A stretch of 64,000 nucleotides of DNA from Anoxynatronum buryatiense (lineage in GTDB: Bacteria > Bacillota > Clostridia > Peptostreptococcales > Tindalliaceae), in contig NZ_FXUF01000011.1 in assembly GCF_900182905.1 (NCBI RefSeq), positions 62,001 through 126,000 on the forward strand. The letters are read 5' to 3'. The stretch's first letter is position 1. Each line of letters begins with the position of its first letter. A model generated the notes under the pieces. That model had not been told where the DNA came from and made no database searches. It saw only the letters and a program-made list of their open reading frames with translations. Below, piece by piece: positions 41,701 through 61,206 of the stretch. Made by a program: the position numbers and the translations under genes.

Positions 41701-42156
41701 TCATTCATTTTCTTCCCTGTTCCACCGATATTTTTTGTTGCGGTGCAGGGTATCGATCTGGCATTCCAGACACAGGCCATTGTGACAGCAGACGACCCCG
41801 CCGCATGCTTTGCACCGCCACTTTTCCGTTTCTTTTTCCAGAAATGCCTCTATTCCGTGAAAACGAAGGTATTTAAGGTTTTCAATCATGCTCATGTGAT
41901 ATTTTCCCCTGTAACGTCGGTCCAGTGCCTTCAGCCTTTTGCACGGGAACTCCTTGCATTCGAAGCAAAACCGGACTTTTCCTTCTGCCATCAGTTCACA
42001 GTAATGGCCCATGTGGGTGCAGTGCTCCCCTCGCGGGATACACCCCGGGCAATACTTCCGGCGAAATCCCTGTTTGTTTATATCATGCTGCATAAAAAGA
42101 TAGTGGATGCACACGCCACAGTTCATGCCACAGGGAGCGATGAGATTTTCATGCAC
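41701..42156 (-). CDS. DUF3795 domain protein (copy 2)
   Basis: 151 residues, ~85 percent identical in the Cys-rich segments to copy 1 at 9497-9949: PCGMNCGVCVHYL, YCPGCIPRGEHCTHMGHYC, FCFECKEFPCKRLK, WRCKACGGVVCCHNGLCLEC. GTG start, with AAGGAGTGGAG upstream. Function unknown; the cysteines suggest metal binding. It lies directly downstream of the Fe-S protein gene 42189-43253 and may be co-transcribed. Confidence 0.85.
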   Translation of the reverse strand: MHENLIAPCGMNCGVCIHYLFMQHDINKQGFRRKYCPGCIPRGEHCTHMGHYCELMAEGKVRFCFECKEFPCKRLKALDRRYRGKYHMSMIENLKYLRFHGIEAFLEKETEKWRCKACGGVVCCHNGLCLECQIDTLHRNKKYRWNREENE

Positions 42157-45302: not shown

Positions 45303-45396
45303 ACCAGGTATTCTATCAAAAAAGAAAAGAGGCGCTTTTGTCTTGCCTCCATCACGAAGAGTGTTTTGTTAATACAACCCAAGGGAGGAAATAAAA

Positions 45397-46248: not shown

Positions 46249-46314
46249 GCCTTTCTGATCGCACACCCTTGGCCTATGCTGTAAAGTGTTTTAACATGAG
46301 AATAAACTTCTGTT

Positions 46315-47247
46315 CTATCTATTGTATAAAGTGGCGATATTATGTATTCTGCGCTTCATTTCTGCGCGGATATGCAACGGCTCTAAACACTCGCACTTAT
46401 CTCCAAAGCTGAAAAGAATGTTGTAGTGGTATTCGTTCTCTATGAAAGGAAAGCGAACAATATAATGCTCATCACCTTCTGGCGAAAAGTTGTCATCAGT
46501 GCAATAATCAAGCACCCTGTCCATGACTGATTGGTGAATCCGAAGTTTGATTTTTGTTTGCATTGTTGCCCAGACATCGGCAAAGTCCAACTGCGGTTTT
46601 GGATATTCCCGTGGCGTAAAACACGTCTCCTGAATTTGCAGGTTTGATGTGCGGGATAGTTTGAACAGGCGAAAATCAGTTCTTTTATGACAAAACCCTT
46701 GCCAATACCAATGGCTATTTTTCAGTACAAGCTGATACGGTTCGGCTTTTCGTGCCATTTTATTTCCGTAGCGGTCTGCATATTCAAAGGAAAGCAGCCT
46801 GCTTTCCTGCAACGCTGTTTGGATCATTTGCAAATATGGCTGTATGTTTCTGTTGCCCATCCAGGGACTTAAATCTACATGTATTTGACTTGCTTTTAGT
46901 TCAATGTCTCTCGCTCTGTCAGCGGGGATAAAGCTCTTCACTTTTGCAAGGACGTTTACCAGTTCATTACCCCGGATCATGCTGGAAAGACTGGAAAGCC
47001 CCATCAGGATAGCGGAAAGGTCGGCAGTCGAAAAAACCTTTCTATCAACCTTGTACGCCTGCAGAATTTCAAAGCCGCCGCCTACTCCCGATACTGATCG
47101 AACAGGAATGCCTGCCATGTTGATGCTGTCGATGTCGCGGTAGATTGTGCGAAGTGAAACTTCAAACATATCTGCCAGCTCCTGTGCGCTTATACGCTCT
47201 CGATCCAAGAGTATCATAATCATGCTGACGAGCCTGTCAATTTTCAT
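46315..47247 (-). CDS. YafY-type regulator (HTH-11 + WYL)
   Basis: 310 residues. N-terminal helix-turn-helix ERISAQELADMFEVSLRTIYRDIDSINMAGIPVRSVSGVGGGFEIL and a WYL sensor domain (LSFEYADRYGNKMARKAEPYQLVLKNSHWYWQGFCHKRTDFRLFKLSRT, with the expected W-Y-x residues). Start at MKIDRL, preceded by AAAGGCGG. Divergent from the DJ-1 gene at 47371 with ~120 bases between, so it probably controls that gene and itself. Confidence 0.88.
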   Translation of the reverse strand: MKIDRLVSMIMILLDRERISAQELADMFEVSLRTIYRDIDSINMAGIPVRSVSGVGGGFEILQAYKVDRKVFSTADLSAILMGLSSLSSMIRGNELVNVLAKVKSFIPADRARDIELKASQIHVDLSPWMGNRNIQPYLQMIQTALQESRLLSFEYADRYGNKMARKAEPYQLVLKNSHWYWQGFCHKRTDFRLFKLSRTSNLQIQETCFTPREYPKPQLDFADVWATMQTKIKLRIHQSVMDRVLDYCTDDNFSPEGDEHYIVRFPFIENEYHYNILFSFGDKCECLEPLHIRAEMKRRIHNIATLYNR

Positions 47248-47295
47248 CCGAGAGCCGCCTTTCAGTATTTCTTTGACTGTCGCAGATTGCTGCCA

Positions 47296-47323
47296 GATTG
47301 TTGCCATACTGTTGTCAACAATC
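47296..47323. promoter_or_regulatory. inverted repeat, candidate WYL-regulator operator
   Basis: GATTGTTG (47296-47303) and CAACAATC (47316-47323), a perfect 8-bp inverted repeat with a 12-base spacer in the divergent promoter region. Consistent with a dimeric HTH-WYL regulator site. Confidence 0.5.
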
Positions 47324-47370
47324 GAATGGTAGAATGAAAAAGCAGGTAATCAAAGGAAATGGAGGAATTG

Positions 47371-48003
47371 ATGTTGACAATCTATGTTTATGTTCTTGAT
47401 ACTTTAGCCGACTGGGAACTGGGATATGTTACTTCGGAGCTGAACTCTGGTCGATTTTTCAAAAAGGGAGAGCAGCGGGTATCGCTCAAAACGGTCAGTT
47501 ATTCAAAGGAGCCAATCAATACAATGGGCGGGTTAACCATCGTGCCCCATTGCTTAATTGATGAGATTGCCGTGAGTGAAACAAGCGTGTTGTTATTACC
47601 GGGCGCAGATACGTGGAACGACCCAAAGCATGGCGCTATCATCGAAAAAGCAAGGGAATTTCTCTCTTTGGGCGCCACCGTGTGTGCCATCTGTGGTGCT
47701 ACCGCCGCACTTGCCAACGCTGGGCTGTTGGATCAGCGTCCCCATACCAGCAATGGGCCCGGATTTCTTGAAATGGTTTCTCCTGGTTATCAAGGGCAAC
47801 GTTTTTATGTGGACAAGCCATCTGTGGCGGATCACAACCTTATTACCGCAAGTTCCACCGGAGCTTTGTTGTGGGCGAAGCAAATCATTGAACATGCAGG
47901 TGTTTTTCAATCAAGCACACTGGAATCCTGGTATGAGTATTTTAGTACCGGTGAGCCCCAGCATTTCTTTGCCCTTATGAATTCTTTGTCGTCCAACGAT
48001 TAA
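47371..48003 (+). CDS. DJ-1/PfpI family protein
   Basis: 210 residues. YVYVLDTLADWELGYVTSELNSG, NTMGGLTIVPH, LLLPGADTW, and nucleophile elbow AICGATAALA. Paralog of 3609-4265 but without its C-terminal repeat tail. GGAGG precedes the ATG at 47371. Divergent from the WYL regulator; likely stress- or ligand-induced deglycase or amidotransferase-like function. Substrate unknown. Confidence 0.88.
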   Translation: MLTIYVYVLDTLADWELGYVTSELNSGRFFKKGEQRVSLKTVSYSKEPINTMGGLTIVPHCLIDEIAVSETSVLLLPGADTWNDPKHGAIIEKAREFLSLGATVCAICGATAALANAGLLDQRPHTSNGPGFLEMVSPGYQGQRFYVDKPSVADHNLITASSTGALLWAKQIIEHAGVFQSSTLESWYEYFSTGEPQHFFALMNSLSSND

Positions 48004-48010
48004 GGCCGAT

Positions 48011-48071
48011 TCATGTGACGCAATTCTTCAAAAGTGGGAGCGCTGTTCACTATTTGTGGCGTGATGCCAAG
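48011..48071 (-). pseudogene. exonuclease internal fragment
   Basis: Minus strand reads LGITPQIVNSAPTFEELRH, matching HGITPQMVNNAPTFKELWH of the exonuclease at 52758-53327; about 85 percent identical DNA. Confidence 0.8.
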
Positions 48072-48107
48072 GGTCCGCTCTGGAAAAGAAAAATATGCAA
48101 GTAATTT

Positions 48108-49025
48108 CTATTTTGAGTACTCTTTAATAAAAGCTTTGATTTCATTTTCCATTTGGGTTAATCCTGGCTCCTCTATCGGAAAATGTCCGGCTTTATCCAA
48201 GAGTACTCTTTTTTTAATAGCTGTGATTCTATTAAAAAAGATGTCACTCACCTTTACAGGCGTCCACAAATCATTTCCTGGGTGAACCATGAGAACAGGT
48301 ATCTTGTCAAAGTATTCCGGCTCTATCATGGGAGCACTATTCATCATTGAAAGCAGAAAATTTATATCGACTTTACTTCCTGGACCTCGTTTATCTCTTA
48401 ACAGTACTTTTAGTATGCTCTTATCATTTACGAGACCATCCATGTTTGTCACCATTTTAATCGGTATTCTAAAATTCTTGAAGAACTCAGGTAGTAGATT
48501 CAAGAGTTTTATTCCAAATATTGCCTGAAATTTATTTTTTGCGGAATATAGCCTTACTTCTTCTTCACGGCTATCCAGGATGTTCGTGAAGATTAATCCA
48601 GATAAATCTTTGTTTCTACATGCAACATTGTATGCAAGCATCCCCCCTGCACTCAATCCGATTACAAATACTTTTCTCAATTTCTTTAGTTCTTCTTCTG
48701 CTATTCTGCTCCCAATATCAATCCAGTCATTATATCTTATTTTTTTTCGATATTTTGTGAATCCATATCCCGGCAGATCTGGGCAAATGACATTGAAACC
48801 TTCTGCTACAAGAGGTGCTGCAAAAAATGAAACAATACGTCCATTTCCACCAACGCCATGAAAAACGATTACCGTTGTGTTTGAACCCTGCTCATACTCA
48901 TCAATATGAACATCCATATCATTGATTGTTAAATATTTTTCAACTGGCGCTATTTTATCACTCAAACGATTTTTTTCAGGCAAAAGAGCTTGAAGCTGTT
49001 TCCAAGTATCATCTTTTTCGTACAT
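48108..49025 (-). CDS. alpha/beta hydrolase
   Basis: 305 residues. Oxyanion HGVGGNG, nucleophile elbow VIGLSAGGMLAY (Ser), acid in HPGNDLWTP, His in DKAGHFPIEEPG, giving a complete Ser-Asp-His triad. AT-rich compared with flanking genes, suggesting a separate origin. GGAGAAAGCT precedes ATG. Substrate unknown. Confidence 0.85.
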   Translation of the reverse strand: MYEKDDTWKQLQALLPEKNRLSDKIAPVEKYLTINDMDVHIDEYEQGSNTTVIVFHGVGGNGRIVSFFAAPLVAEGFNVICPDLPGYGFTKYRKKIRYNDWIDIGSRIAEEELKKLRKVFVIGLSAGGMLAYNVACRNKDLSGLIFTNILDSREEEVRLYSAKNKFQAIFGIKLLNLLPEFFKNFRIPIKMVTNMDGLVNDKSILKVLLRDKRGPGSKVDINFLLSMMNSAPMIEPEYFDKIPVLMVHPGNDLWTPVKVSDIFFNRITAIKKRVLLDKAGHFPIEEPGLTQMENEIKAFIKEYSK

Positions 49026-49058
49026 AGCTTTCTCCTTTTCATTGTGTCACAGATGGGA

Positions 49059-49820
49059 TCATGTGTTGAGTTCTTCTGCCTTATCCCCCAGCTCGCGAAT
49101 GACATCATCTCGCCTCAGAGGCATGCCATGGCCATGGACTACCGTTTTGAAATCATAAGTTAGCATTTGACTGAGCACTATTTTAGAAAATCCATTTTTC
49201 GTTACCGCCGACACATCCCCTCGGTGCGTTTTACGTTCATGGTAAGGCGGCGGGTAGAAGGCATCCCCCGTAAACATCACCTGATCATGTTCATCATAAA
49301 TTAAAATGGAATCCTCCGAGTGTAGGCTATTGGTGCTATCCAACAACAGTCGTCCATCTGCCAGCTCTATCACCATGCGTTCCCGAAAAGTTGTTTGTGG
49401 AAGCCGAATGTGAAAATCGTCCCAGTTATGAACCGCTCGTATTTTTACATCATGACTGGTCTTGTTCTGTGGGTATTTGGCTGCTTCCTGCTTTAGAAAT
49501 TCAGCGCTCCAGGGCTTCTGAGCTTCCACCTTCAGGTAGTCCAAGCATTTTTCGTGGGCAATAATGGGGGCATCAAAAGACATGGCACCAAAAACATGAT
49601 CCCAGTGGTGATGAGTATAGATGATATGCGACACAGGGGGCGCTTTCATGGAAGCCAGCACTTCCTGTATAAATGTTCCCCAGACAGGACCATTGCCGCA
49701 ATCTATCAACACTGTCTGTGTTCCATTGTTAATAATGCCTACATTGGGCTGGATTCCCCGGTTGCTGCCAACAATCATCCATACCCTGTCAGTCAATTTC
49801 CTAACTCGCCTTTTGTTCAT
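49059..49820 (-). CDS. MBL-fold metallohydrolase (intact paralog)
   Basis: 253 residues. Zinc motifs THHHWDHVFG, HSEDSILIYDEHD, FTGDAFYPPP and HGHGMP of the metallo-beta-lactamase fold. No signal peptide. Closely matches the stop-interrupted gene at 28691-29416 over its whole length. Hydrolase or oxidoreductase substrate unknown. 33 bases upstream of the alpha/beta hydrolase start on the same strand, but codon use differs. Confidence 0.87.
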   Translation of the reverse strand: MNKRRVRKLTDRVWMIVGSNRGIQPNVGIINNGTQTVLIDCGNGPVWGTFIQEVLASMKAPPVSHIIYTHHHWDHVFGAMSFDAPIIAHEKCLDYLKVEAQKPWSAEFLKQEAAKYPQNKTSHDVKIRAVHNWDDFHIRLPQTTFRERMVIELADGRLLLDSTNSLHSEDSILIYDEHDQVMFTGDAFYPPPYHERKTHRGDVSAVTKNGFSKIVLSQMLTYDFKTVVHGHGMPLRRDDVIRELGDKAEELNT

Positions 49821-49959
49821 TGTGGCTTATCTCTCCTTGGCGTCACTTGTAACAGTTCCATATCATTCAACTTTTTTCTATTTGGTGATTGGTTTAACGC
49901 TTGCAAAAACTGATACGCTGTCGCTCTCAAAACAAAAAGTGGCCCACTCACAACTCCAA

Positions 49960-50661
49960 CTATTCTACATAAGCAACTCCCTCAGCTTTGATCTCTGCCA
50001 GCCGCTTTTCTGCGATGCCATTTATACGCGTCATATCGTCAACGGAACGAAAGGGTCTGAGACGAATTATCTGCTCTGCACGCTCTTCGTCAATGTGTAT
50101 AATTTTTTTGAGTTCTTCAATTCCGGCAGTGTTAATGTTAACGCTGCCAGTTTGAGGCGCAACTATTGTTGGTTGATTAACCGTAGGTGCCGGGGTAACG
50201 GCAGGTGGTGGTGCAACCTCATTAGCCTGCACAGCTTGGCTGTTAATTGCCACGGTTCTTGATTCAGAAATCCATTCTACATTGGCATTCAGGCTTTCTG
50301 CAATGAAACGAGCCGGAACCATTGTTCTGCCATCAACCAGCGTTCCAGGGACGTCAATTTCTACAGGGACATTGTTCACGGTGGGGAAACGACTCCCAAT
50401 TTGCAATACAACTGTGGTATCGTCTTTTGTACCTGTAACTGTTCTAGTGTCATTATTCCAGTGAATTTCAGCACCAAGCGCTTCAAATATACCTCTTAGA
50501 GGAACCAATGTCCGACCTTCAACGATTGCAGGTGGCACATCGAACTGAAGCAGGTGTCCGTCAACAGTAACTTTCGTGTGTTGCGCTGCAGAAGCGGGAG
50601 TCACAAAAAAGCTTGCGAACAATAAAATGAGTGCTGCGGTAATCAACAATTGCCTTTTCAT
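49960..50661 (-). CDS. exported copper-amine-oxidase-N-domain protein with helix-hairpin-helix
   Basis: 233 residues. Signal peptide (FASFFVTPASAAQ), a Cu-amine-oxidase-like N-terminal domain with its repeating pattern (VEGRTLVPLRGIFEALGAEIHWN, VDGRTMVPARFIAESLNANVEW), a Pro-rich linker, then a ComEA-like HhH domain (INTAGIEELKKIIHIDEERAEQIIRLRPF). Exported; the HhH may bind DNA outside the cell. Last of three minus-strand genes, 33 bases after the TPR gene. Confidence 0.82.
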   Translation of the reverse strand: MKRQLLITAALILLFASFFVTPASAAQHTKVTVDGHLLQFDVPPAIVEGRTLVPLRGIFEALGAEIHWNNDTRTVTGTKDDTTVVLQIGSRFPTVNNVPVEIDVPGTLVDGRTMVPARFIAESLNANVEWISESRTVAINSQAVQANEVAPPPAVTPAPTVNQPTIVAPQTGSVNINTAGIEELKKIIHIDEERAEQIIRLRPFRSVDDMTRINGIAEKRLAEIKAEGVAYVE

Positions 50662-50693
50662 ATAACATCCTCCTTTTCATATATGTTGATTCC

Positions 50694-51641
50694 CTAAGCT
50701 TCCAGCTCCGCCAATCGTGTACTGACATCTTCATAGTTAATATCAAAAGCTGCAACTTTTTGAAACTGTTTCACTGCTTTTTTCACGTCTCCAGACCCTT
50801 GGTAGGCACAACCAAGTATATACCTAAACATCTTCATCAGACCATCCATGTTTTGTTTACGAGTTGGGCCAGTTTCCAATACCGCCACTGCCTGTTCCGG
50901 CTTTCCAGATTCCAGCAACGCATTGCCCAAAGCTATCAGGAGAGGCAACTCTTTCGCCATTTCCTCCGGCATCTGTTGCAACTCACGTACAGCTTCTTCA
51001 TATTTGCCGATCTCAGAAAGAGCGAGCCCGTAATTAAATCGAACCATGTAATCATTTGGATCTCTTTCCAAATATGCCTCATAATAGTGGATTACCTTAT
51101 CATGTTTTGCCAAGTGATACGCGCTATCTGCCATCAGTGGATAAATAGAATAAGTTTCCGGCATTAGTTCCTGTACCTTCACCAATTCATCCAACGCCTC
51201 CTTGTGCTGAGCTTTCAGATAATACTTCTTACCTTCTCTGTAATGTCTGTTGGCCTTCCATTTGGGAGATTTAAACCATAATAAAGCGTAAATCACCAAA
51301 CCAATCGCCCCAAGACCGCCAACTGGCAAGAGCAAGATCGATGCGATCAAAAGAATAGTCGGAAGTGACGTTTTTATTTCCGGAGGGGCTGGGAGTTGGG
51401 CGTTCATTACAGGCGCTTCCGTCCTTTTATTGACGGGAGTGTTCTTTCGCTGCTTACTCTTACCCGCGTAGTTAATCGCATACAGGCCCGTTCCTGGTAT
51501 TCCTGCGGATGTATAGGCTCCGCGGGGACCCAATCCTACTCGAGCACCTTTTCCACCAACACTAATACCAAGGCCGCCTTTGCTGAGATTTAGTCTTGCC
51601 CCCTTCCCAAGACTGATGCTTCTACGAAACCGTATACCCAT
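50694..51641 (-). CDS. DUF4236 domain + tetratricopeptide repeat membrane protein
   Basis: About 315 residues. N-terminal DUF4236 (FRRSISLGKGARLNLSKGGLGISVGGKGARVGLGPRGAYTSAGIPGTGLY), a hydrophobic segment (TILLIASILLLPVGGLGAIGLVIYALLW), then four to five TPR repeats (YHLAKHDKVIHYYEAYLERDPNDYMVRFNYGLALSEIGKYEEAV). Likely a scaffold at the membrane. It begins four to five bases after the K+ channel gene stops, so they are co-translated. Confidence 0.8.
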   Translation of the reverse strand: MGIRFRRSISLGKGARLNLSKGGLGISVGGKGARVGLGPRGAYTSAGIPGTGLYAINYAGKSKQRKNTPVNKRTEAPVMNAQLPAPPEIKTSLPTILLIASILLLPVGGLGAIGLVIYALLWFKSPKWKANRHYREGKKYYLKAQHKEALDELVKVQELMPETYSIYPLMADSAYHLAKHDKVIHYYEAYLERDPNDYMVRFNYGLALSEIGKYEEAVRELQQMPEEMAKELPLLIALGNALLESGKPEQAVAVLETGPTRKQNMDGLMKMFRYILGCAYQGSGDVKKAVKQFQKVAAFDINYEDVSTRLAELEA

Positions 51642-51645
51642 CATC

Positions 51646-52428
51646 TCACTCCTTTTTTAGCAGACTCTTTAATACTGCCGACATCTGGTCAATCTCCTCT
51701 TCTGACAGATTGTCAAAGTCATCTAGTTTAAGTTTTATTGATTGAACAGTCATGTCACGATAAGATACTGCTTCTGTTTTTTTGTCGCCCAGGAAATATG
51801 TGGCAATTGTACCGGTTACCATGCCCAGAAATCCTATTCCCACCAACATTAGCACCGATGCTAAAAGCTTGCCTCCGTTGGTCGATGGTGAAATATCACC
51901 GTATCCAACCGTGGTGATGGTAACAAAACTCCACCAAAGAGAATCAATCACACTCATATCCTCAAGCAGATAGATGCTTACAGCGCCCATAAGCGTAACC
52001 GCCATCGTTATAAACACCATATAAATCAATCCATTGGTGCGTATAAACACACTGAATTTATCTTTAAAACGGGAAAGCCAGACAGCCACACGCACAAGGC
52101 GCATGGTTCGAGTCAAGCGAATCAAACGGGTTAGTCGTGCTAATCTGGCAAGACGAAATACAGAAGAAAAAGGAACAATAGCAACAAGATCAGGAATATT
52201 ACTGCGGATAAACGTTTTCTTTTTTTCAGCCCAGAATAAGCGGATGACATAATCTAACGCAAAAATGATTAAGATGCTGGTATCTACACGCTGAAACAGT
52301 ATTGATGCCTGAGGCGATAACTCCAAACGGTATTCGATAAATAGCATTATCACTACCACCACGACAAGTATGACCATGAACCACTCGTATACATTAGCCC
52401 AACGCTTTTTTGATACCAAGGTGCTCAC
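51646..52428 (-). CDS. potassium channel protein (Kv-like, pore motif TVGYGD)
   Basis: 260 residues. Six helices predicted, including an Arg-rich S4-like segment (FRLARLARLTRLIRLTRTMRLVRV), the pore helix and selectivity filter SFVTITTVGYGDIS, and a final helix (LLASVLMLVGIGFLGMVTGTI). Short cytoplasmic tail with an acidic coil. Forms a tetrameric K+ channel. GTG start, or TTG nine bases later after GAGGTGA. First gene of a three-gene cluster. Confidence 0.87.
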   Translation of the reverse strand: MSTLVSKKRWANVYEWFMVILVVVVVIMLFIEYRLELSPQASILFQRVDTSILIIFALDYVIRLFWAEKKKTFIRSNIPDLVAIVPFSSVFRLARLARLTRLIRLTRTMRLVRVAVWLSRFKDKFSVFIRTNGLIYMVFITMAVTLMGAVSIYLLEDMSVIDSLWWSFVTITTVGYGDISPSTNGGKLLASVLMLVGIGFLGMVTGTIATYFLGDKKTEAVSYRDMTVQSIKLKLDDFDNLSEEEIDQMSAVLKSLLKKE

Positions 52429-52467
52429 CTCGTTATTGATTCTTAATTTTGTTCGCTGAATCTTTGA

Positions 52468-52542
52468 TCAGTGCATGTGCATGGCAAAGGTGATTTCGTC
52501 ATCTGTCATATTGTCAAAAATAAAGAACAAGACCTCTTTCAT
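52468..52542 (-). pseudogene. DJ-1/PfpI N-terminal fragment
   Basis: 24 codons, MKEVLFFIFDNMTDDEITFAM and so on, ending in TGA. It resembles the first strand and helix of a DJ-1/PfpI gene of a different branch from the two complete copies. It keeps an RBS-like GGGAGCG. Confidence 0.6.
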
Positions 52543-52757
52543 GTTTACGCTCCCTTATGATGCTGTGAAATACTGACGGTACCGGAGAACAGAATCTCGG
52601 CATCATCACATCGGATTAGTGATACGATCTAATTGGGAGTGTAAACTAAATTGTGCTTTTAGCTAATCCAACTATCATATCCACGGGGAGAAGATGGAAA
52701 TGGTCAAGAGTAAAAAACAAGAATCATGGCCCAAGGACAGGCCCTTCCACTGCAAGG

Positions 52758-53327
52758 TCAGTACCCATCAGAACGAATTTTGCCCAAACCAACGCCATAG
52801 CCTCTGGCCATATCTACTATGGAATCCTGTTGCCGTTCATGCATCAGGCATAACAACACCTCAGCCGCCGCCTGGGCGTCTTCAAGGGCGTCGTGATGCT
52901 TGAAACGAAACCCAATATGATGTGCCACTGTGGGAAGCTTGTAGTTTATCAGTTCGGGAAGTGCTTTGCGTGCCAGCTTTAGAGTGCAAAGGTAGTCGAT
53001 GGCAGGATACTTAAGGTTGTATTGATCCAGGGAGCAACGAAGTACTCCCATGTCAAAAGAGGCGTTGTGGGCCACGACAATTTTTGATTCCAGTATGTCA
53101 CTCACTTCATGCCACAATTCTTTAAAAGTGGGAGCGTTGTTCACCATTTGTGGTGTGATGCCATGGATCTGGATATTAAAGGGATTAAATTCCAGAGGTT
53201 CCGGTTTAATGAGCCAGCTTTTTCGAATGCATTCGCCGTTGTCATAGATCACCATGCCAAGGGCGCAGGCGCTGTTTCTTCTGTTATTGGCTGTTTCGAA
53301 GTCGATGGCGACGAACTTGATGGGCAT
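52758..53327 (-). CDS. DnaQ-like 3'-5' exonuclease (intact copy)
   Basis: 189 residues. DEDDh exonuclease motifs: VAIDFETAN (Exo I), HNASFDMGVL (Exo II), HHDALEDAQAAAEVL (Exo III with His). Related to the epsilon subunit / PolC exonuclease domain, but free-standing; DNA or RNA trimming. GGAGCTGAACCATC precedes ATG. At least three fragments of homologous genes lie at 36.4, 39.0 and 48.0 kb. Confidence 0.9.
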   Translation of the reverse strand: MPIKFVAIDFETANNRRNSACALGMVIYDNGECIRKSWLIKPEPLEFNPFNIQIHGITPQMVNNAPTFKELWHEVSDILESKIVVAHNASFDMGVLRCSLDQYNLKYPAIDYLCTLKLARKALPELINYKLPTVAHHIGFRFKHHDALEDAQAAAEVLLCLMHERQQDSIVDMARGYGVGLGKIRSDGY

Positions 53328-53406
53328 GATGGTTCAGCTCCTAAACGATACCATAATGGGGCAATGCTTTAAGAATTCATATTGACACTTCGAATAGGGG
53401 CGCTGC

Positions 53407-53422
53407 TGAAACTGTTCAAGAA
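53407..53422. repeat. 16-bp direct repeat left of fos gene
   Basis: TGAAACTGTTCAAGAA, identical and same orientation as 53906-53921. Confidence 0.85.
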
Positions 53423-53460
53423 GTGATGGTTATGTCGAACTTACACTCCCTTGCCTTTTC

Positions 53461-53868
53461 CTACATCAACGTAAATGACGACCAGTTGTTCTCTCTGGCC
53501 CATTTCAATCGATCCTCCAAGGTATTATAGTGCAATTCCAACTTATGCCCGTCTGGATCAAGAAAATAGAATGATTCTCCCTCTGACGAGTTTTCTTTAA
53601 ATGATTTTACCCCGGCGCTTTCAAGCTTTTCTTTTAATCTATGGAAATCTGAAGACAAGACATTGAATGAAATATGTGTATTATCTCCCATTGCCTCTGC
53701 AGCTCTCTCTTTATCAACATTTAAAGCAATCCACTGATTCCCGGCCAGTAAATATGCTCCCTCATCCCATTTTCCCACGATTCTAAGTCCAAGCAAATTC
53801 ACATAAAAATCCAGAGATCTTTCTAAATCCGTAATTGCAAAAGTGATATGATTAATCCCGTTTATCAT
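53461..53868 (-). CDS. FosA/FosX-like fosfomycin-modifying VOC enzyme
   Basis: 135 residues. Vicinal-oxygen-chelate fold: INHITFAITDLERSLDFYVNLLG (metal His), HISFNVLSSDF (second His), and the fosfomycin-enzyme C-terminal signature SSEGESFYFLDPDGHKLELHYNTLEDRLKW (metal Glu in KLELH). FosA adds glutathione, FosB a thiol, FosX water; a clostridium without glutathione points to FosX or FosB activity. GGGGGGATAGTGG precedes ATG. Flanked by 16-bp direct repeats. Confidence 0.87.
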   Translation of the reverse strand: MINGINHITFAITDLERSLDFYVNLLGLRIVGKWDEGAYLLAGNQWIALNVDKERAAEAMGDNTHISFNVLSSDFHRLKEKLESAGVKSFKENSSEGESFYFLDPDGHKLELHYNTLEDRLKWARENNWSSFTLM

Positions 53869-53905
53869 CCACTATCCCCCCAGCAACTGGCCTCCGTTTA
53901 TAGAT

Positions 53906-53921
53906 TGAAACTGTTCAAGAA
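53906..53921. repeat. 16-bp direct repeat right of fos gene
   Basis: TGAAACTGTTCAAGAA, identical to 53407-53422; about 500 bases apart, enclosing the fos-like gene. Confidence 0.85.
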
Positions 53922-54082
53922 ACGCACTGCAGACTAAGCTTATACTGTACGCGACCATGACCTTGCCTGTTACCGCAGTTTTGCATAAAGATTTCACTTC
54001 TGTTAAACCCTGTCCACTCACCCTCATTAAAGTGTCTCGGCCAGCTTCTGAATCTTTGAGAAGGAAGCCGGTTCTTCTTCGA

Positions 54083-54976
54083 TTATTCATACGTCACATC
54101 CAGCTCTTGGATGAATACTCCTGTTCCAGAAACATACACATCCATCCCATGGTGATTGCGTTTGACACTTACATATACTTTCCCGTCTTTGTTAATTTCC
54201 TGGCCCTGTTCAACAATGAAGTCGATATTGTCGATTTCTTTGTTCAGGTAGGTTAAGTAATATGCCCCCATAGCTCCTGATGCTGTGCCGGTTACCGCGT
54301 CTTCAACAGTACCAGAGTATGGTGATGAAAAGTGTCTGGCATGCATCCCAACCTGGTCTCCATCATTCAGTATGCAGAATGGATGAACGGATGTCCTCGG
54401 TTTCTCTTTAAGAATATCCGGGAATTCTCTATTATTCGGATTCATCTCTCGAAAACTGGCTAAGGACTTGATATGTACCAGTAAGGTCCATGCCCCCGTG
54501 CTCCCATACACAATGGGCAACGTTCCATCAATTTCGTCCGATAAAATCCCCATGCTTCTTGCAAGAGCATCCATCGAACCCTGGAAAGGCATGAACTGAG
54601 GTTCATCTTGCTTCATTGTAACAAACAAATTGTCTTCTCTGGTTTCAAAACGGATAGGTAATACTCCTACATTGGTTTCGATCTTAATTTCATTTACTGC
54701 TTCACCGATAAATCCTCTGGATTTCATACAGTACATTGATCCAATGGTAGCATGACCACATAAGTTGATTTTATGCCCAGGAGTAAAATACCGTAGCCTG
54801 TAATCAGCATTATCTGATTTCACTACAAAGACAGTCTCATTAAACCCAACTGCTTTAGCAATGGATTGCATGGAATCTTCGTTTAAATGATCTGCATTCA
54901 GTACAACTCCCGCTGGATTACCCTTATGAGCAACCGATGAAAATGCATCGTAATGTAGCACTTTTTGTTTTTTCAT
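54083..54976 (-). CDS. PhzF family isomerase/epimerase
   Basis: 297 residues. FSSVAHKGNPAGVVLNADHL, NETVFV (catalytic Glu), GHATIGSMYCM and GTASGAMGAYYL, all PhzF/DAP-epimerase-fold hallmarks. Members isomerise phenazine precursors or other hydroxyl/enol substrates; no phenazine genes here. Start at 54976 after AGGGAAAAGG. Confidence 0.9.
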   Translation of the reverse strand: MKKQKVLHYDAFSSVAHKGNPAGVVLNADHLNEDSMQSIAKAVGFNETVFVVKSDNADYRLRYFTPGHKINLCGHATIGSMYCMKSRGFIGEAVNEIKIETNVGVLPIRFETREDNLFVTMKQDEPQFMPFQGSMDALARSMGILSDEIDGTLPIVYGSTGAWTLLVHIKSLASFREMNPNNREFPDILKEKPRTSVHPFCILNDGDQVGMHARHFSSPYSGTVEDAVTGTASGAMGAYYLTYLNKEIDNIDFIVEQGQEINKDGKVYVSVKRNHHGMDVYVSGTGVFIQELDVTYE

Positions 54977-55075
54977 CCTTTTCCCTGCTTTCAATACGCT
55001 TTTAACCAAGTTCCTTTAAAAGTTCTGTGTTTGCGGCGGCCCTGAGTCGGCCCTCCTCTTTAATCACACCTCATG

Positions 55076-55756
55076 CTAATGACTATTCTTTCCCTGTCTC
55101 ATTGGGCAAATTACCCTGCATTTATTGCAGTTAACAGTATTAAAGCCTCTGTCATTGGTTCCATATGTATTCAGTCTGCATTTTGCCTGATTTGCGTTTC
55201 GGCCGTCCAATGCTTTAGACGGGCAGTTTTCGATACATAGATTGCAACCATTTATACAGATGCTCTCCGCAAGTGAGTCGGAGACAAGGTCAAGCTCTGT
55301 AAGAACGATTCCCAAAGTTAACAAATTACCATGCTTTTCGTTTAGCAGTAATGTATTTTTGCCTAGTGTTCCCAGTCCTGCAAGTACGGCGGCATGTTTC
55401 ATGGATAACAGCCCACGGCCCTCCAGTTTTTCTGCATCCCAGTATTCATAAGGACTGTCTGAGGGAAGCGGTACAGCATAGCCACTGGAGATTCTTTCAA
55501 TCTCTTTTGCAGCTCTTAGTGCCACCCAGTCAACCTCTGGACATGTGCTGTAATTGAAATGACCGTATATCAGTCTTGGTTCTATCATTGTCAGCCCTTT
55601 TGGAAGCGCTATGCCAAACACAATGATCGATTTGCAGTCGGAAAATATATCTCTTGGGTGAAAGCCTGCTGGTGCTTCGGAAAAGCGGTCAACGTTAGCG
55701 ACACCACACACATCCGCACCAAGATTTAATATAAATTCTTTGATCTGATTCTTCAC
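55076..55756 (-). CDS. 4Fe-4S protein, QueG-like (epoxyqueuosine reductase family)
   Basis: 226 residues from the GTG at 55756 (GAGGGGGG upstream). DVCGVANVDRF, IVFGIALPKG, AAVLAGLGTLGKNTLLLNEKHGNLLTLGIVLTELDL, then two cluster motifs, CINGCNLCIENCPSKAL and NCNKCRVICPMRQGK. Shorter than QueG, with no HEAT region. Probably a corrinoid/Fe-S redox protein; queuosine function not assured. Confidence 0.82.
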   Translation of the reverse strand: MKNQIKEFILNLGADVCGVANVDRFSEAPAGFHPRDIFSDCKSIIVFGIALPKGLTMIEPRLIYGHFNYSTCPEVDWVALRAAKEIERISSGYAVPLPSDSPYEYWDAEKLEGRGLLSMKHAAVLAGLGTLGKNTLLLNEKHGNLLTLGIVLTELDLVSDSLAESICINGCNLCIENCPSKALDGRNANQAKCRLNTYGTNDRGFNTVNCNKCRVICPMRQGKNSH

Positions 55757-55872
55757 TCTTAAGCCCCCCTCTTGCATATATGCTATGTACATAATTCTTG
55801 TTTTGCAGTTTTGCACAAACGTAATTTGAAAAGTCATTAATCCCTCTTACTCTTACTCTTACGCAATCTGCG

Positions 55873-56017
55873 AGAGAACACCTCCGCACTCAAGACGTTT
55901 TTCAGCCTTAGATAGCTCTTATCTTAGGCTGAGGAAGGTGCTTTGGCTTCAACTACTAAAAGTTCACTACCCTAAGCAACCAAAGCAGCCAAAGCGAACT
56001 TGAGTGCATTGTTAGGT
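55873..56017 (-). other. attC-like site 3 (degenerate R' core)
   Basis: Reading with the GrpB gene: R''-like ACCTAAC (56011-56017), L'' GCACTCAAG (55999-56007), a long inner structure with paired AGCCAAAGC / GCTTTGGCT and a TCAGCCTTAGATA hairpin, L' CTTGAGTGC (55886-55894), then a degenerate outer core GTTCTCT in place of GTTRRRY. It lies right after the GrpB stop codon, as expected of a cassette's attC. The missing R' consensus keeps confidence moderate. Confidence 0.5.
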
Positions 56018-56054
56018 GATGTCGTTCACTGAAACTACCATTCATACTACTTTG

Positions 56055-56648
56055 TCAAGTAGTCTTATTGGGAGTATATCGGTTAACATAACACATTCTT
56101 GCTCTTTTAGTGTGCTCAAGTATAAACTCACTTTTGGCCTCAGTATATCCATCTCTATTGTTCTCAAAACCTTTCAATAAGCTTACCTTCAATTCTGCAT
56201 ACTCTGCTGCTATGTCAAGATGTTCAATCAGATAATCTCTGAAGTATAGTTCATTCCAATCACCTAAGTATCTTACGTGAAGATGATAGACTTTTTCAGC
56301 ATATCCGCTTGGGGTATATCCTTTATTAAATACCAAATTTAAATCTGGCTCAAATTCACTTGACATGATTGTCCATCCTGCTGCTTTCAACCTTAAGATT
56401 ATCTGATGAATATCACAGTCTCCACTTAACTCTAATAAGATATCAATTGTTGGCTTTGCTATTAAGCCTGGTACTGCACTACTTCCAATATGGTTAATTC
56501 TACTGATAAATGTACCATTAATTGCTTCTATAATATTATTCTTCTCATCTTCATACCAATCATAATATTGGGGATTGTGTTCTTTTAGAATGATTGGAAA
56601 TAGCATCCATAATTCTTCTAAAGTCATATCTGATAATTTTTTCTCCAT
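56055..56648 (-). CDS. GrpB/UPF0157 family nucleotidyltransferase-like protein
   Basis: 197 residues. UPF0157 signature SRINHIGSSAVPGLIAKPTIDILLEL (nucleotidyltransferase-fold GSSxxPG...D-I-D-like) and YHLHVRYLGDWNELYFRDYLIEHLDIAAEYAELK. GGAGGG precedes ATG 56648. Small GrpB genes are frequent integron-cassette cargo. AT-rich, and between attC-like sites 2 and 3. Confidence 0.9.
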   Translation of the reverse strand: MEKKLSDMTLEELWMLFPIILKEHNPQYYDWYEDEKNNIIEAINGTFISRINHIGSSAVPGLIAKPTIDILLELSGDCDIHQIILRLKAAGWTIMSSEFEPDLNLVFNKGYTPSGYAEKVYHLHVRYLGDWNELYFRDYLIEHLDIAAEYAELKVSLLKGFENNRDGYTEAKSEFILEHTKRARMCYVNRYTPNKTT

Positions 56649-56698
56649 ACTTCCCTCCACGCAAGATAAAATCGAAAATCAAACTGGTGAACAATGTC

Positions 56699-56775
56699 AC
56701 CTAACGTCCTGCGAATTCTCGAAGTCTGGTTGCTACATTCATATTATCTCAGATTTTGGGAATTCACTGTTAGAC
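56699..56775 (-). other. attC-like site 2
   Basis: 77 bases. On the minus strand: R'' GTCTAAC (matches RYYYAAC), L'' GAATTC, single-stranded-type centre, L' GAATTC, R' GTTAGGT (matches GTTRRRY). Both core boxes fit the integron consensus, with the inverted L boxes at the expected spacing. It lies between the small membrane-protein gene and the GrpB gene. Confidence 0.65.
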
Positions 56776-56906
56776 GATGGACATGCCCCCAGATTCAGAG
56801 ACGACCATGGATGGGAGTCCCTTATACTTTTCTCTTGAGCTATGTACCATGCAAAATAAGAAAAGTGCGTCTTAATTACATATGCGGATTATGCTCATTA
56901 GTCTTG

Positions 56907-57089
56907 TTAATCCTTTTTTAAGCCAAAAGTCCCCAAGACAATACCAAGAACCATAGATAACAACCCAGCGTATTTTGGTACTTGCATATACCCTGCTTGA
57001 ATGGCTACATCTGCAAAACCTAATACACCAACAGAATACATGATTGACCCTCCAATAAAAAGCATTCCTCCGAATACTACTTTTTTCAT
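56907..57089 (-). CDS. 60-residue two-helix membrane protein
   Basis: MKKVVFGGMLFIGGSIMYSVGVLG and YAGLLSMVLGIVLGTFGLKKD form two hydrophobic helices with a short loop. RBS GAGGGGG six bases before ATG. Alone between attC-like sites 1 and 2, so probably the single gene of one cassette. No family recognised. Confidence 0.75.
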   Translation of the reverse strand: MKKVVFGGMLFIGGSIMYSVGVLGFADVAIQAGYMQVPKYAGLLSMVLGIVLGTFGLKKD

Positions 57090-57214
57090 ACGTAACCCCC
57101 TCGTTGTATAATGATAATATTTATTGCATATCTATCTGCGAATGTGCAATAAGACAATTTATTCACTAACGTCCACATTCCGTCTTTTTCAAATCCGCAC
57201 ATAGATACACAGTC

Positions 57215-57325
57215 GCCTAACTTTTTGCAGGTTTCCGAAGTTCATGAGGTTTAGGGCGACTGTCCTTACCGAATGAATTTGGATGCAGCGACATAGGAGC
57301 GAAATCGGAAACCTTGCCGTTATGC
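57215..57325 (-). other. attC-like site 1
   Basis: 111 bases. Minus strand: R''-like GCATAAC, L'' GGCAAGGTTTCCGA, long centre, L' TCGGAAACCTGC, R' GTTAGGC (perfect GTTRRRY). The paired arms GCAGGTTTCCGA / TCGGAAACCTTGC match over 12 bp with one unpaired extra T, like the extrahelical base typical of attC. Placed immediately after the stop codon of the 57333-58160 gene. Confidence 0.7.
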
Positions 57326-57337
57326 GCAGTATCTAAC
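57318..57337 (-). repeat. 20-bp inverted repeat, left arm
   Basis: Minus strand GTTAGATACTGCGCATAACG; 17 of 20 bases equal the + strand at 58643-58662 (all three differences are transitions). It overlaps the last codons of the unknown gene and the R'' core of attC-like site 1. Confidence 0.75.
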
Positions 57338-58160
57338 GGAAGTTCTCCATAAACTTCCTGGCCACTTCAATTAATTCTTCTGAATTAGTTATAATTAGCT
57401 GGGAAGTCTTAATTGCTGTAGGTAAATTCTTAATGAACGAACCAATTCCTCTTAACGCCTTTTTGATCTTTACCATCTTCGGTTCAGAAGCGTTCACATT
57501 CTCAGTAATCGTATCTAAGTCGTCCAGAAATTCTTCTACCGACGCATCTTTACAACCTGATTCTTCTACTGAAACTTTTAAAGATGAGACTAATTCATTA
57601 ATTCTCTCTACTTCATTTATAATATACTCATTCGACGAATTGATATTGCCAGATGCAATATTAGCAGTTCCGTAATTCTTATCTATGTATTGGTTAATAT
57701 TGGTTCCTGTATTGTTTCTCTGTTCTTTAGTCATAATATCCATAGATATTCTATCAGTAATAAAATCCACTAGGGGTTTGATTAGCTTCTCAACAAAGTT
57801 ACGTACAATATCATTCCATTGATTACTAGAACATCTGTACTTCCTTGCTTCACCTCGAATGTCTCTATCCTGCTCTGTCAGCTCATAGAAATAGTCCAAT
57901 ACTGCCTTCATATGGGTTCCATGATCAACAGGATAATTGAAGTAATTCCATCCACCATCACTGATTATAAATTCAGACTTGTAGTCAATCTCTGTGCCTT
58001 GAATCTCATCTTCAATAATTCCTTGAATATATTCACAACCTTCTATATAGTGACGCAACCTCATTAGATGCAAGTTGCCTTCATCGTATTTTGCCCTTAG
58101 AGCATTTGAAGACAATCTTCTAAATTCCATACTTGTCTTTCTTAAATCGCTTAATTCCAT
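57333..58160 (-). CDS. unknown protein, second gene of a coupled pair
   Basis: 275 residues. An N-terminal ~130-residue helical domain (MELSDLRKTSMEFRRLSSNALRAKYDEGNLHLMRLRHYIEGCEYIQGIIEDEIQG), a Gly/Asn-rich linker (NNTGTNINQYIDKNYGTANIASGNINSS), a coiled helix, and a hydrophobic amphipathic C-terminal region (ALRGIGSFIKNLPTAIKTSQLIITNSEELIEV). The Asn/Gly linker resembles those joining sensor and effector parts in some abortive-infection (AbiTii-like) proteins, but I cannot name the family. Its ATG overlaps the preceding gene's stop (TGATG). The stop codon lies in the GTTAGAT inverted repeat. Confidence 0.75.
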   Translation of the reverse strand: MELSDLRKTSMEFRRLSSNALRAKYDEGNLHLMRLRHYIEGCEYIQGIIEDEIQGTEIDYKSEFIISDGGWNYFNYPVDHGTHMKAVLDYFYELTEQDRDIRGEARKYRCSSNQWNDIVRNFVEKLIKPLVDFITDRISMDIMTKEQRNNTGTNINQYIDKNYGTANIASGNINSSNEYIINEVERINELVSSLKVSVEESGCKDASVEEFLDDLDTITENVNASEPKMVKIKKALRGIGSFIKNLPTAIKTSQLIITNSEELIEVARKFMENFR

Positions 58161-58609
58161 CAAATATCCACCCCACAATACGAGCAAAACACATTAGATT
58201 TCCCTGCACAGTATAATACTTTAACATGCTTGTTACATGAAGTGCACTCAAATTCATCTTCAACACTATCTTCAGTTCTCATCTCTTGAACATTTATCTT
58301 CTTAAGCGGTTTCCACTTCATCTTAATCAATTTGGATTTATTCATTTTCTTGGCAATACCACCGAAAGCCTTATTCAACTCTTCATACATATAGTTCATT
58401 GCAAGTTCCTTAGCATGCTCAATCGCTTCTCGAGTATAGAAATTACTCACTTCGTCCGCCAAGCCACAATAGGGACAAAAAATCTCATGATAATATTCCT
58501 CTTCATTTTGGATTTCACCCGCCATAAGCCTAAACTCAGACTCGCAATACGGACATTCAAACTGTACATAACCTTCTGAATCACCTTCAATGCTAAATTC
58601 AAGATCCAT
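58160..58609 (-). CDS. zinc-ribbon protein, first gene of a coupled pair
   Basis: 149 residues. Two Cys4 zinc ribbons: FECPYCESEF...FCPYCGLADE at ~18-50 and ECTSCNKHVK...VFCSYCGVDI at the C-terminus, joined by a helical middle (EAIEHAKELAMNYMYEELNKAFGGIAKKMNKSK). Small zinc-ribbon proteins are often nucleic-acid or protein sensors; the function here is unknown. It overlaps the next gene by one base, so both are made together. AT-rich; RBS GGGAGG. Confidence 0.8.
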   Translation of the reverse strand: MDLEFSIEGDSEGYVQFECPYCESEFRLMAGEIQNEEEYYHEIFCPYCGLADEVSNFYTREAIEHAKELAMNYMYEELNKAFGGIAKKMNKSKLIKMKWKPLKKINVQEMRTEDSVEDEFECTSCNKHVKVLYCAGKSNVFCSYCGVDI

Positions 58610-59221
58610 CTGATTTCCTCCCTATTTATTCTCCTTAACTTAGTTAGATATTGCGTATAGCGTCTTATTCCCGTCACTCAGTTCGCTTTATCTCCCATTT
58701 CAGTAGGTGTTCGCGAACCTTGGTTCGGTAATATCGACTTCTTTCTGTCACACTGCAAAGCCTTTTGTCTTTACTCTTCCAACATTTTATCAATCAGACT
58801 CTATGCTTCTCATCGAATCAGCGCTCTACAACACCGCAAATACATCGTTTTTCAGTTAACCCGTGACGGGGTGTCACCTCCCGTTATTTTGCCAAGGTAT
58901 CTGGGCAATGGGTGTTAATCGTGTATTGCTGCCACAAATAGGCGAAAAACCTCTTACAAACCATTATACAGGTTTTATGCGTCATCAGTGAGAATATTCC
59001 TTCATTTTTATAGAAGTACTGCTTAATAGAAATTCTGTTACCACCTTTTCACCACTTGTTCCAGAGTGCTTGAATAACTGTGTGCCATAAAATTTCAAAA
59101 ATGTCTACGGAGCAGATCCCCTTTAGTCTGACATTTCCTCCCACATTAAATCCCACATTGCATACCTCCGTTTTTTGATAATGACTGAAAACAGTGAAGG
59201 TGCGCGACGCATGTATTGCAT
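58610..59221. other. non-coding stretch right of the cassette-like array
   Basis: About 610 bases. Contains the right 20-bp inverted-repeat arm and a CCCGTGACGGG hairpin near 58863. No attI, integrase or gene recognised; small open frames lack an RBS. On the minus strand it should hold the promoter of the zinc-ribbon pair. Confidence 0.5.
58643..58662 (+). repeat. 20-bp inverted repeat, right arm
   Basis: GTTAGATATTGCGTATAGCG, partner of 57318-57337; encloses the zinc-ribbon/unknown gene pair. Confidence 0.75.
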
Positions 59222-59270
59222 AAAAAACGACCCTGACCACATCCGGTTTTGGGAATGTTGTCGGGGTCGT
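59222..59270 (-). terminator. intrinsic terminator of the LysM/hydrolase gene
   Basis: ACGACCCTGAC / GTCGGGGTCGT arms (one mismatch) followed on the minus strand by TTTTTT. Confidence 0.75.
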
Positions 59271-59295
59271 CTATTGGCGATTGAGTGTCTGTATT

Positions 59296-61206
59296 TTACT
59301 TCAGCGCTTTGGAAAAGAAATCTGCCAGCGAGTCTTCCACGGCTGCTGTCACATCCGGCTGGTTGCTGTAAAAACCATAGCCATGATCAGCGTTGGGTAC
59401 GACAATGATCTCTGCGGCTGCATAGGCTTCTGCCACTGCCTGGTTAACACCAGCCCGAACCACATCATCCTGGTCGCCGAAAACCACCAACATGGCACCG
59501 TCGTAGTTGGTGATGTTTTCCAGTGGGCGGGAGGCAATCATTTCTTCAAACCAGTTAAGGCTCAGCTGCTGTACCTGTCCCCACTGGGTGGTGAAGTCGG
59601 CATACCCTTTTTCGCTTTGGGCTTCTGCGTAAAGTTCGTCGAATGCTTCCTCACCGCCCAGGAAACTGACCATCATTTCCTGACCCCAGTCGGCAGAGGG
59701 TGCCAAGAGCCCCATGGCTTGATAAGGCTGATTATCTTCGCTGCCAATGTGCAGCGCGATTCTGCCGCCCATGCTGTAACCCATGATCCCCAGACGCTGG
59801 GAGTCAATGGGGTAATTGTCCAGCAGGTAGGCCAGGCTGGCATTGGAATCGGAAATCATGTTGGAGAGATAGTTTTCAGTGAAGGGTTGCGTGCTGTCGC
59901 CACAACCGGGGAAGTCCATGCGAATGGTGGCAATACCACGATTGGCCAGGGCTTCTGCCACACCACCAAATCCGCTGTTTTCCTGTCTGCTGCCGCCATG
60001 CCCATGGTTCATCACCACTGCAGGGAATGGGCCGGCTCCCGCAGGTATCACCACAGTGGCGGGTACCATGCGGTCACCGTTCATGATGCTGATTTCTTCC
60101 GTGGTGTACGCTGGTTGCAGGGTGGCAGCAAACCAGTTGACGGTGGCGTCGATGAGCTGGTCAAAAGCTGTCATGTCGCCGGTAAAGATATTGAAAGTGT
60201 GGTCAGCCCCTTCCAAAATCAACTGTCGGGAAACGGGGTTGGCTGAGGCTTCCACAATCAGGGCAGCGTTAATGGGGTCAACAACAGTGTCTTCACTTCC
60301 ATTGATGGCCAGTACCGGGGCATCGGAATAACTGAACACCTCCAGCACATCTGTGTTGTAAACATCGTCAAACCATTGGAGGCTGACGCGCAAGGGGCTT
60401 CTCCAGCCAAATTCCCGGAGGAAGAAACCATCTGCTTTGGCAGCTTCATACTCTTCTTCAGAACCGGCAATGGTCATGTCAGGCGCACCTGCCCATGTCA
60501 CCACTGACTGGAAGGACCGGTTGTGGGCGGCGGCCAGCATGGCAATGGTACCACCCTGGCTCCAGCCCATGACACCGATGCGGGTGGCATCGACTTCCTG
60601 AAGGTTTGCCAGGTAGTCGAAAGCGGCATTGGCATCTGAAACGGCGGTGTCGAAATTGTATTCAATATAATCCACCTGACTGTCACCCGTACCGATGAAG
60701 TCAATGCGAATGCTGGCAATGCCAGCTTCTGCCAGCGCTGGAGCGGTGAGGATATAGCCGCCTCCTGCTTCGTTCTTTTCTGAGCCGGTGCCGTGAAGCA
60801 TCACCACGGCGGGGAAGGGCCCTTCACCCACGGGCAATGTCACGATGCCCGGTATCTGGTAATCGCCATTGGGAAGCGACACATTGTATTCCATGTACGC
60901 TGCCTCCTCTGGCTCTTCCACGATGACTTCTGTAATGGGCGGGTCGAGTTGGTCAGCTGGCTCAGTTTCCAGTGCCGGAGCAGGTTCGCCGGGTACTGGA
61001 ATGTTCAAGGTGGTGCCAATTTGAAGTTTTCTGACGTCACGCACCCCGTTGAGTTCCGCGATTTCATTCCAATCAACACCGTACGTGATACCCAGATCCC
61101 ACAGGGTGTCACCTTTCACCACGGTATAAGAAAGAGCATACACACTGGTGAAGCTGACAAAAACCATCATTGTCACCAAAAACAGAGCTGCGATTTTTCG
61201 CTTCAT
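59296..61206 (-). CDS. exported LysM + tandem alpha/beta hydrolase (copy 2)
   Basis: 636 residues. Signal peptide (to VYALS), LysM (YTVVKGDTLWDLGITYGVDWNEIAELNGVRDVRKLQIGTTLNIP), acidic linker, then two hydrolase domains: the first with HGTGSEKNEAGG and nucleophile GVMGWSQGG, the second with NHGHGGSRQ and GIMGYSMGG, ending NADHGYGFYSN. Both have Ser elbows and likely acid/His residues, so two active sites. Wall-bound esterase or dienelactone-hydrolase-type activity. Start at 61206 by RBS distance and the copy-1 alignment. Confidence 0.9.
   Translation of the reverse strand: MKRKIAALFLVTMMVFVSFTSVYALSYTVVKGDTLWDLGITYGVDWNEIAELNGVRDVRKLQIGTTLNIPVPGEPAPALETEPADQLDPPITEVIVEEPEEAAYMEYNVSLPNGDYQIPGIVTLPVGEGPFPAVVMLHGTGSEKNEAGGGYILTAPALAEAGIASIRIDFIGTGDSQVDYIEYNFDTAVSDANAAFDYLANLQEVDATRIGVMGWSQGGTIAMLAAAHNRSFQSVVTWAGAPDMTIAGSEEEYEAAKADGFFLREFGWRSPLRVSLQWFDDVYNTDVLEVFSYSDAPVLAINGSEDTVVDPINAALIVEASANPVSRQLILEGADHTFNIFTGDMTAFDQLIDATVNWFAATLQPAYTTEEISIMNGDRMVPATVVIPAGAGPFPAVVMNHGHGGSRQENSGFGGVAEALANRGIATIRMDFPGCGDSTQPFTENYLSNMISDSNASLAYLLDNYPIDSQRLGIMGYSMGGRIALHIGSEDNQPYQAMGLLAPSADWGQEMMVSFLGGEEAFDELYAEAQSEKGYADFTTQWGQVQQLSLNWFEEMIASRPLENITNYDGAMLVVFGDQDDVVRAGVNQAVAEAYAAAEIIVVPNADHGYGFYSNQPDVTAAVEDSLADFFSKALK

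Follow-up and report, generated by a model that had tools for sequence, protein, structure and literature searches.

FosA-family enzymes open the fosfomycin epoxide with a thiol, and fosC2, fosF, fosG and others are integron cassettes in Gram-negative bacteria. The fosE cassette carries an attC site that one report assigns to the Xanthomonadales (PMC8352920). In one account of integrons, an array counts as a CALIN (cluster of attC lacking integrase) when it has two or more attC sites spaced by less than 4 kb, and the same account names the IntI-specific domain as the feature that distinguishes IntI (PMC9668308). Integrons are recorded as known in Firmicutes (PMC8618304). A survey of complete genomes counts a single complete integron, besides a few CALIN, for all Firmicutes (PMC9024848), and an earlier survey gives no integron for 103 complete Firmicute genomes (PMC2426708). 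A search of the open-licence literature found no integron descriptions for Clostridia, Orenia, Halanaerobiales or Alkaliphilus.

The locus described here lies in a stretch of 64,000 nucleotides from Anoxynatronum buryatiense (contig NZ_FXUF01000011.1, positions 62,001 to 126,000), termed the window below and cited by its own positions. It carries a FosA-like gene (fos) and, on the same strand, a row of single genes and attC-like sites that we regard as a further example of an integron-type (CALIN) array, in bacteria where integrons have rarely been seen.

The fos gene, its relatives and its neighbours

The fos gene (53461-53868, -) encodes 135 aa and is FosA-like by profile, by its PDB relatives (1npb, 1lqk and 5v3d) and by its residues, which bears out a first-pass annotation that had named it a fosfomycin-resistance-like (FosA/X-like) gene. 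Its product matched NCBIfam NF000496 (Fos_GSH) over the full length (E 1.3e-46), the best match among the 37 families listed, with a score of 158 bits vs a curated cut-off of 180 bits, below which it falls. It keeps H7, H65 and E111, which we take to be the metal ligands, and T9, K91, N93, S95, G97, S99, Y101 and R120, presumably the substrate residues. Ten of these positions (H7, T9, H65, N93, S95, G97, S99, Y101, E111 and R120) are identical in 37/37 aligned rows, and K91 is K in 23/37. Position 63 is N, where 36 of the 37 rows have Y, and judged from sequence this exchange possibly alters activity; in addition, the protein has A48 for C48. The enzyme would be expected to act on fosfomycin with a thiol. 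A GshF-type gene above the cut-off was not found in the A. buryatiense genome, which gave two weaker partial matches.

Among 60 genomes (that of A. buryatiense included), homologues of at least 66% identity other than the gene itself were found in G040 (85%), G008 (69%) and G057 (66%). The nearest, at 85% aa, belongs to another family of the same order; the six other genomes of the same family yielded no close fos homologue, only a 28% match in G002. All 15 Firmicute fos rows fall into one clade of the tree (support 98/95), which occurs in salt- and alkali-loving Firmicutes and looks to be spreading horizontally. In the search of plasmids for fos proteins, the best place in each of the 880 records stayed below 60% identity, and the phage search returned five records, the best at 36%.

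On its 3' side fos adjoins a gene for a DnaQ-like 3'-5' exonuclease (52758-53327, -), and further genes on the same strand encode a PhzF-family protein (54083-55009, -) and an iron-sulphur protein that is QueG-like by a match below the cut-off (55076-55837, -). For a frame of 72 aa at 53872-54090, 147 other genomes gave no relative. Neither tRNA genes in the window nor Rfam families in 45000-60000 were detected. When seven genomes of the family were searched with the DNA of the locus, that of A. buryatiense alone matched; the DnaQ-like gene of G001 has other neighbours. Elsewhere in the window, 47877-48101 is a broken partial copy of the DnaQ-like gene that adjoins fos; it contains stops and reaches 35% aa identity, and 55 nt of it (48021-48075) are 89% identical at the DNA level. 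The window also contains two long-range duplicated pairs, 9529-9931 with 41736-42138 (offset 32207) and 82-540 with 60692-61134 (offset about 60610), whose members are linked by several exact matches, the longest of 28 nt.

Integron-type array on the fos strand

The array runs on the (-) strand from 58802 down to about 55880 and comprises the 3' tail of a recombinase gene, an attI-like site, and two clear and one weak attC-like sites between single genes. The recombinase tail and attI-like site (58650-58802, -) repeat the last codons of a recombinase gene on contig C17 and the 100 nt behind it (86% of 153 nt, E 2.8e-45), and sit directly upstream of the first cassette, which consists of two overlapping open frames of 284 and 149 aa (57333-58609, -). 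There follow, all on the same strand, an attC-like site of the form GCATAAC ... GTTAGGC (57215-57330), a cassette with an open frame of 60 aa that belongs to no family (56907-57089), a second attC-like site, GTCTAAC ... GTTAGGT (56699-56775), a GrpB-family gene as a further cassette (56055-56660), and a weak attC-like hairpin (55879-56018) in which R'' (ACCTAAC) is present, the other end is without GTTRRRY and the scan score is at background. The QueG-like gene, the PhzF gene, fos and the DnaQ-like gene continue the order. Each of the three attC-like sites stands 3' of a (-) strand gene.

The first of these sites was matched at 57231-57328 (-) with E 1.6e-11 by a profile built solely from four elements of a Halothermothrix MAG (L076), and the first and second are the top places of the whole window in a hairpin scan. 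The scan and its level of 45 are criteria of our own, devised after the folds had been seen. Of 60 shuffled strands, four attained this level, none of them twice, and of a further set of 12 one did. The scan misses the elements of Alkaliphilus pronyensis (L070), which score up to 34.5. By profile and hairpin scan, and not by a published attC model, the window has two attC-like sites less than 4 kb apart, the spacing of a CALIN. The start of fos lies 4.8 kb from the attI-like site and about 2 kb beyond the weak hairpin that ends the array. No attC-like fold was found beside fos, where the best hairpin score was 22.5, and no attC site stands directly 3' of the gene.

Elsewhere in the genome, five other contigs bear attC-like sites and four bear attI-like copies. 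The right end of the window's own contig (C11) has attC-like sites that match the A. pronyensis profile (E 9e-10 and 4e-9), one of them with a scan score of 58; further sites lie on C8, C27, C33, C17 and, by hairpin scan only, C23. Inside this C11 array an IS3-type element is represented by two open frames (L206:11205-12357, with an rve_2 match at G000:C11:137247, G000 being the A. buryatiense genome). Across 1.19 Mb of the genome the scan gave 13 matches of at least 45, at eight places; three of these (L254, L212 and L259) are without other support, about as many as the rate in the shuffled 64-kb strands (four in 60) would yield by chance. Matches that are independent of the profile used are those at 57231-57328 of the window, in L069, L206, L233, L215, L239 and L265, and at L075:3794-3891; a match in L150 is also independent but marginal (6.6e-4).

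The right end of C17 carries the catalytic half of a tyrosine recombinase, which matches the integron integrase model TIGR02249 (E 1.8e-35) and an XerA-type model (E 6.2e-36), both below cut-off. Behind it lie about 100 nt that end in GACGTTAT, and then genes with an attC-like site. This 100-nt stretch, which recurs on C23 (97%), C15 (89%) and C7 (73%), is read as attI-like. Five attI-like copies occur in the portion of the genome that was covered (L271:9723-9821, L221:824-926, L256:17258-17353, L265 behind 18033, and window 58650-58750), and the copy on C15 adjoins a gene that reads like guaA. The cassettes at the C17 right end (L265:17309-20000) encode a methyltransferase and a pentapeptide-repeat protein weakly like Qnr models, and are separated by an attC-like site. 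In A. pronyensis, the 30 nt that directly follow the attC-like site before fos (L070:3811-3840) are 93% identical to the beginning of the first C17 cassette (L265:18141-18170).

The C17 recombinase gene seems to be damaged: the open frame ahead of it uses a different reading frame and has no family match. Aligned with VchIntIA (2a3v), it misses about 42 residues between two aligned blocks, the first of which is weak (9.9 bits). The IntI-specific insertion presumably falls in this gap, and the recombinase seems to be without it. A motif search of 1.19 Mb of the 4.16 Mb, which missed the C17 gene itself, revealed no IntI with the IntI-specific domain. Thus what is seen amounts to a CALIN plus an attI-like site rather than a complete integron, and an IntI may lie elsewhere in the genome.

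In other Firmicutes fos itself stands between attC-like sites, namely in A. pronyensis (L070), Orenia (L075) and the Halothermothrix MAG (L076). The A. pronyensis gene is flanked by a direct repeat of 22 bp, different from the 16-bp repeat of the window, which is part of elements of about 160-180 nt that recur between single genes, and the other two loci have the same layout with other elements. The Orenia elements form long hairpins and have ends of the types RYYYAAC and GTTRRRY, a pattern that the L070 and L076 elements follow less closely, with an end mismatch or a weaker fold. The Orenia array also carries genes for an aminoglycoside 3-N-acetyltransferase, an S66 peptidase and a group II intron reverse transcriptase, the last at its end (L075:6915-8276). 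Some group II introns target attC sites. Altogether, attC-like sites flank fos on both sides in 3/14 Firmicute loci (directly in L070 and L076, and with one extra gene before the downstream site in L075), most of the profile matches in these three being there by construction, since the profiles contain their source sites. L069 has two attC-like sites downstream of fos and G040 one marginal match. Nine of the 14 loci had no profile match at 1e-3, and some of these may carry other attC families. At the same threshold, 67 non-Firmicute fos loci and 15 shuffled sequences gave no match.

The 16-bp repeat and the arrival of fos

Two exact copies of TGAAACTGTTCAAGAA lie in the window at 53407-53422 and 53906-53921 (both +), 499 apart, so that the same-orientation 16-bp repeats reported about 500 bases apart on either side of fos are real. 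The genome (4.16 Mb, 47 contigs) has no other exact copy; one with a single mismatch lies within an open frame that reads like a ribosomal-protein-S1 gene. Among the exact direct repeats of the window spaced by up to 1 kb, this pair is the longest. A set of 200 third-order Markov sequences gave an expectation of 0.045 repeats of at least 16 within 1 kb per window, which amounts to about three such repeats per genome by chance; the pair is modestly unusual, and merits a look without being decisive. Control DNA of 648 kb (80 loci) contained two repeats of at least 16 at 300-1000 bp, both in locus L070. The flanks of the two copies agree at 19/80 and 18/80 positions, which is chance level, and 13 Firmicute loci with fos relatives had nothing nearer than four mismatches to the 16-mer within 400 bp either side. 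The setting had also been called AT-rich; GC is indeed lower between the repeats (40%) and in fos (38%) than in the whole window (45.9%), a mild difference only.

Copy 1 sits within a relic of an IS3-type transposase tail (53385-53442, +) that extends 22 nt before it and 20 nt beyond it. The relic is recognised by one 58-nt alignment with a 1-nt gap, 78% identical to a decayed IS3-type transposase tail at G000:C1:163918-163974 (E 7.1e-5 in the DNA search of the genome) that itself exceeds the rve_2 cut-off; its local alignment score of 50 compares with at most 29 in 500 single-base shuffles. Part of the stretch also has short chance matches (E about 4e-4) in unrelated genes of G040 and G117. 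A DNA search of 393 genomes with 53340-53470 gave, besides A. buryatiense, six genomes with short matches (E 4e-4 to 9e-3), and the five loci inspected among these are open frames, none of them transposases. A protein search of 148 genomes with the IS3 tail returned matches in five others, of 40-48% only. When the intergenic stretches were compared at the protein level with intact IS3 transposases of relatives, nothing significant appeared there among the matches listed. Furthermore, no other IS part was recognised beside fos, and plasmid DNA contained nothing like 53328-54082 nor like the IS3 tail of L171.

Copy 2, 37 nt upstream of the fos start, is without IS3 or attC similarity. A second IS3 relic at this place, which would make two flanking fos, was rejected after 162 of 500 shuffles equalled its match. 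The repeat was also considered as a remnant of attC and dismissed, as the copy-1 flank was equalled or bettered in 27 of 100 shuffles and the copy-2 flank in all 100.

On balance, it seems that fos arrived as an integron cassette by site-specific recombination and has since lost its attC, the 16-bp repeat being incidental. A FosA-like gene of the horizontally spreading clade would have entered the genome as a gene cassette and come to sit on the distal side of the array, on the same (-) strand, where its own attC would have decayed after arrival. The IS3 relic lies on the 3' side of fos, with copy 1 as a piece of this relic and copy 2 as a short upstream match. Delivery as a cassette and loss of attC are suggested by the position and strand of the gene and by its relatives. 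Counting against this reading are the missing attC-like fold beside fos, the distances of about 2 kb and 4.8 kb that part the gene from the weak hairpin and the attI-like site, and the low share (3/14) of Firmicute fos loci with attC-like sites on both sides, besides the dependence of the IS3 relic on a single short alignment. It is possible, if rather unlikely, that the 16-mer is a chance repeat and that fos came by ordinary horizontal transfer unconnected with the adjacent array. The chance expectation per genome, the lack of shared context past the 16 bases, the absence of an attC-like fold at fos, and the many Firmicute fos loci (most of them) without a recognised attC-like site fit that account; the fos relatives that are cassettes in three genomes, and the shared strand and distance of 2 kb between fos and the array, speak against it.

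It is improbable that the block between the repeats came in through recombination at a 16-bp site, or with its 16-bp target duplicated, and might leave by the same route. Exact 16-bp repeats near both ends of a single foreign gene, the longest short-range repeat of the window, speak for this mechanism. The IS3-like stretch, however, runs over copy 1 into the supposed insert, so the copy-1 edge does not look like a new junction; as a duplicated 16-bp target would make it one, insertion with target duplication is not preferred. Repeats were not found at both junctions of foreign DNA, the 483 bp between the copies contain neither terminal repeats nor a recombinase, and the relatives of fos are without the repeat. 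Of the inserted gene block that had been proposed, the foreign character of fos stands, since the gene looks horizontally spread; the repeats as its edges do not, with copy 1 inside the IS3-tail relic, copy 2 lacking shared context, and 13 loci of fos relatives free of the repeat. In principle the two 16-mers could recombine, with loss of fos. The 16-mer might instead be an operator, since both copies lie upstream of (-) genes (37 nt before the start of fos and 79 nt before that of the DnaQ-like gene) and contain the near-palindrome TTGAA-CAGT-TTCA. This is highly improbable, as the genome has only two exact copies, neither has a promoter-like pair, and the 16-mer was seen neither in the examined stretch upstream of the G001 DnaQ-like gene nor near other fos genes; a shared operator was discarded as unsupported. 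The repeat around fos is best taken as ordinary and is itself of little importance.

Comparison with known systems

The A. buryatiense genome and several relatives bear arrays with accessory and resistance-like genes, which may make the Firmicutes of salty and alkaline habitats an overlooked cassette reservoir. A broader proposal, which we hold to be doubtful, is that salt- and alkali-loving Firmicutes own a lineage of integron-like platforms with several attI-like sites per genome, in which a recombinase of Xer/IntI type that lacks the IntI-specific insertion and has the orientation of the cassettes captures attC-like cassettes that include fos, the aminoglycoside 3-N-acetyltransferase and the S66 peptidase. 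If the recombinase is truly without the IntI-specific domain, what an integron integrase needs for the use of attC becomes testable.

Compared with the FosA glutathione transferases, the window protein is alike in its full-length match and in the metal ligands and substrate residues that it keeps, and differs in its 158 bits (less than 180), in N63 vs Y and in A48 for C48. The likeness to the Gram-negative fos cassettes is that fos has moved as a cassette in L070, L075 and L076, whereas the Firmicute genes form a separate clade and the window fos is itself without attC. The IS3 family is represented only by a fragment, the 58 nt around copy 1 that match the decayed transposase tail at G000:C1:163918. 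With CALIN and sedentary chromosomal integrons the array shares single genes on the same strand, hairpins of the type RYYYAAC ... GTTRRRY, and an attI-like site and recombinase tail in front; it differs from them in its Firmicute host, in the five attI-like copies of the genome part seen, and in a recombinase seemingly without the IntI-specific insertion.
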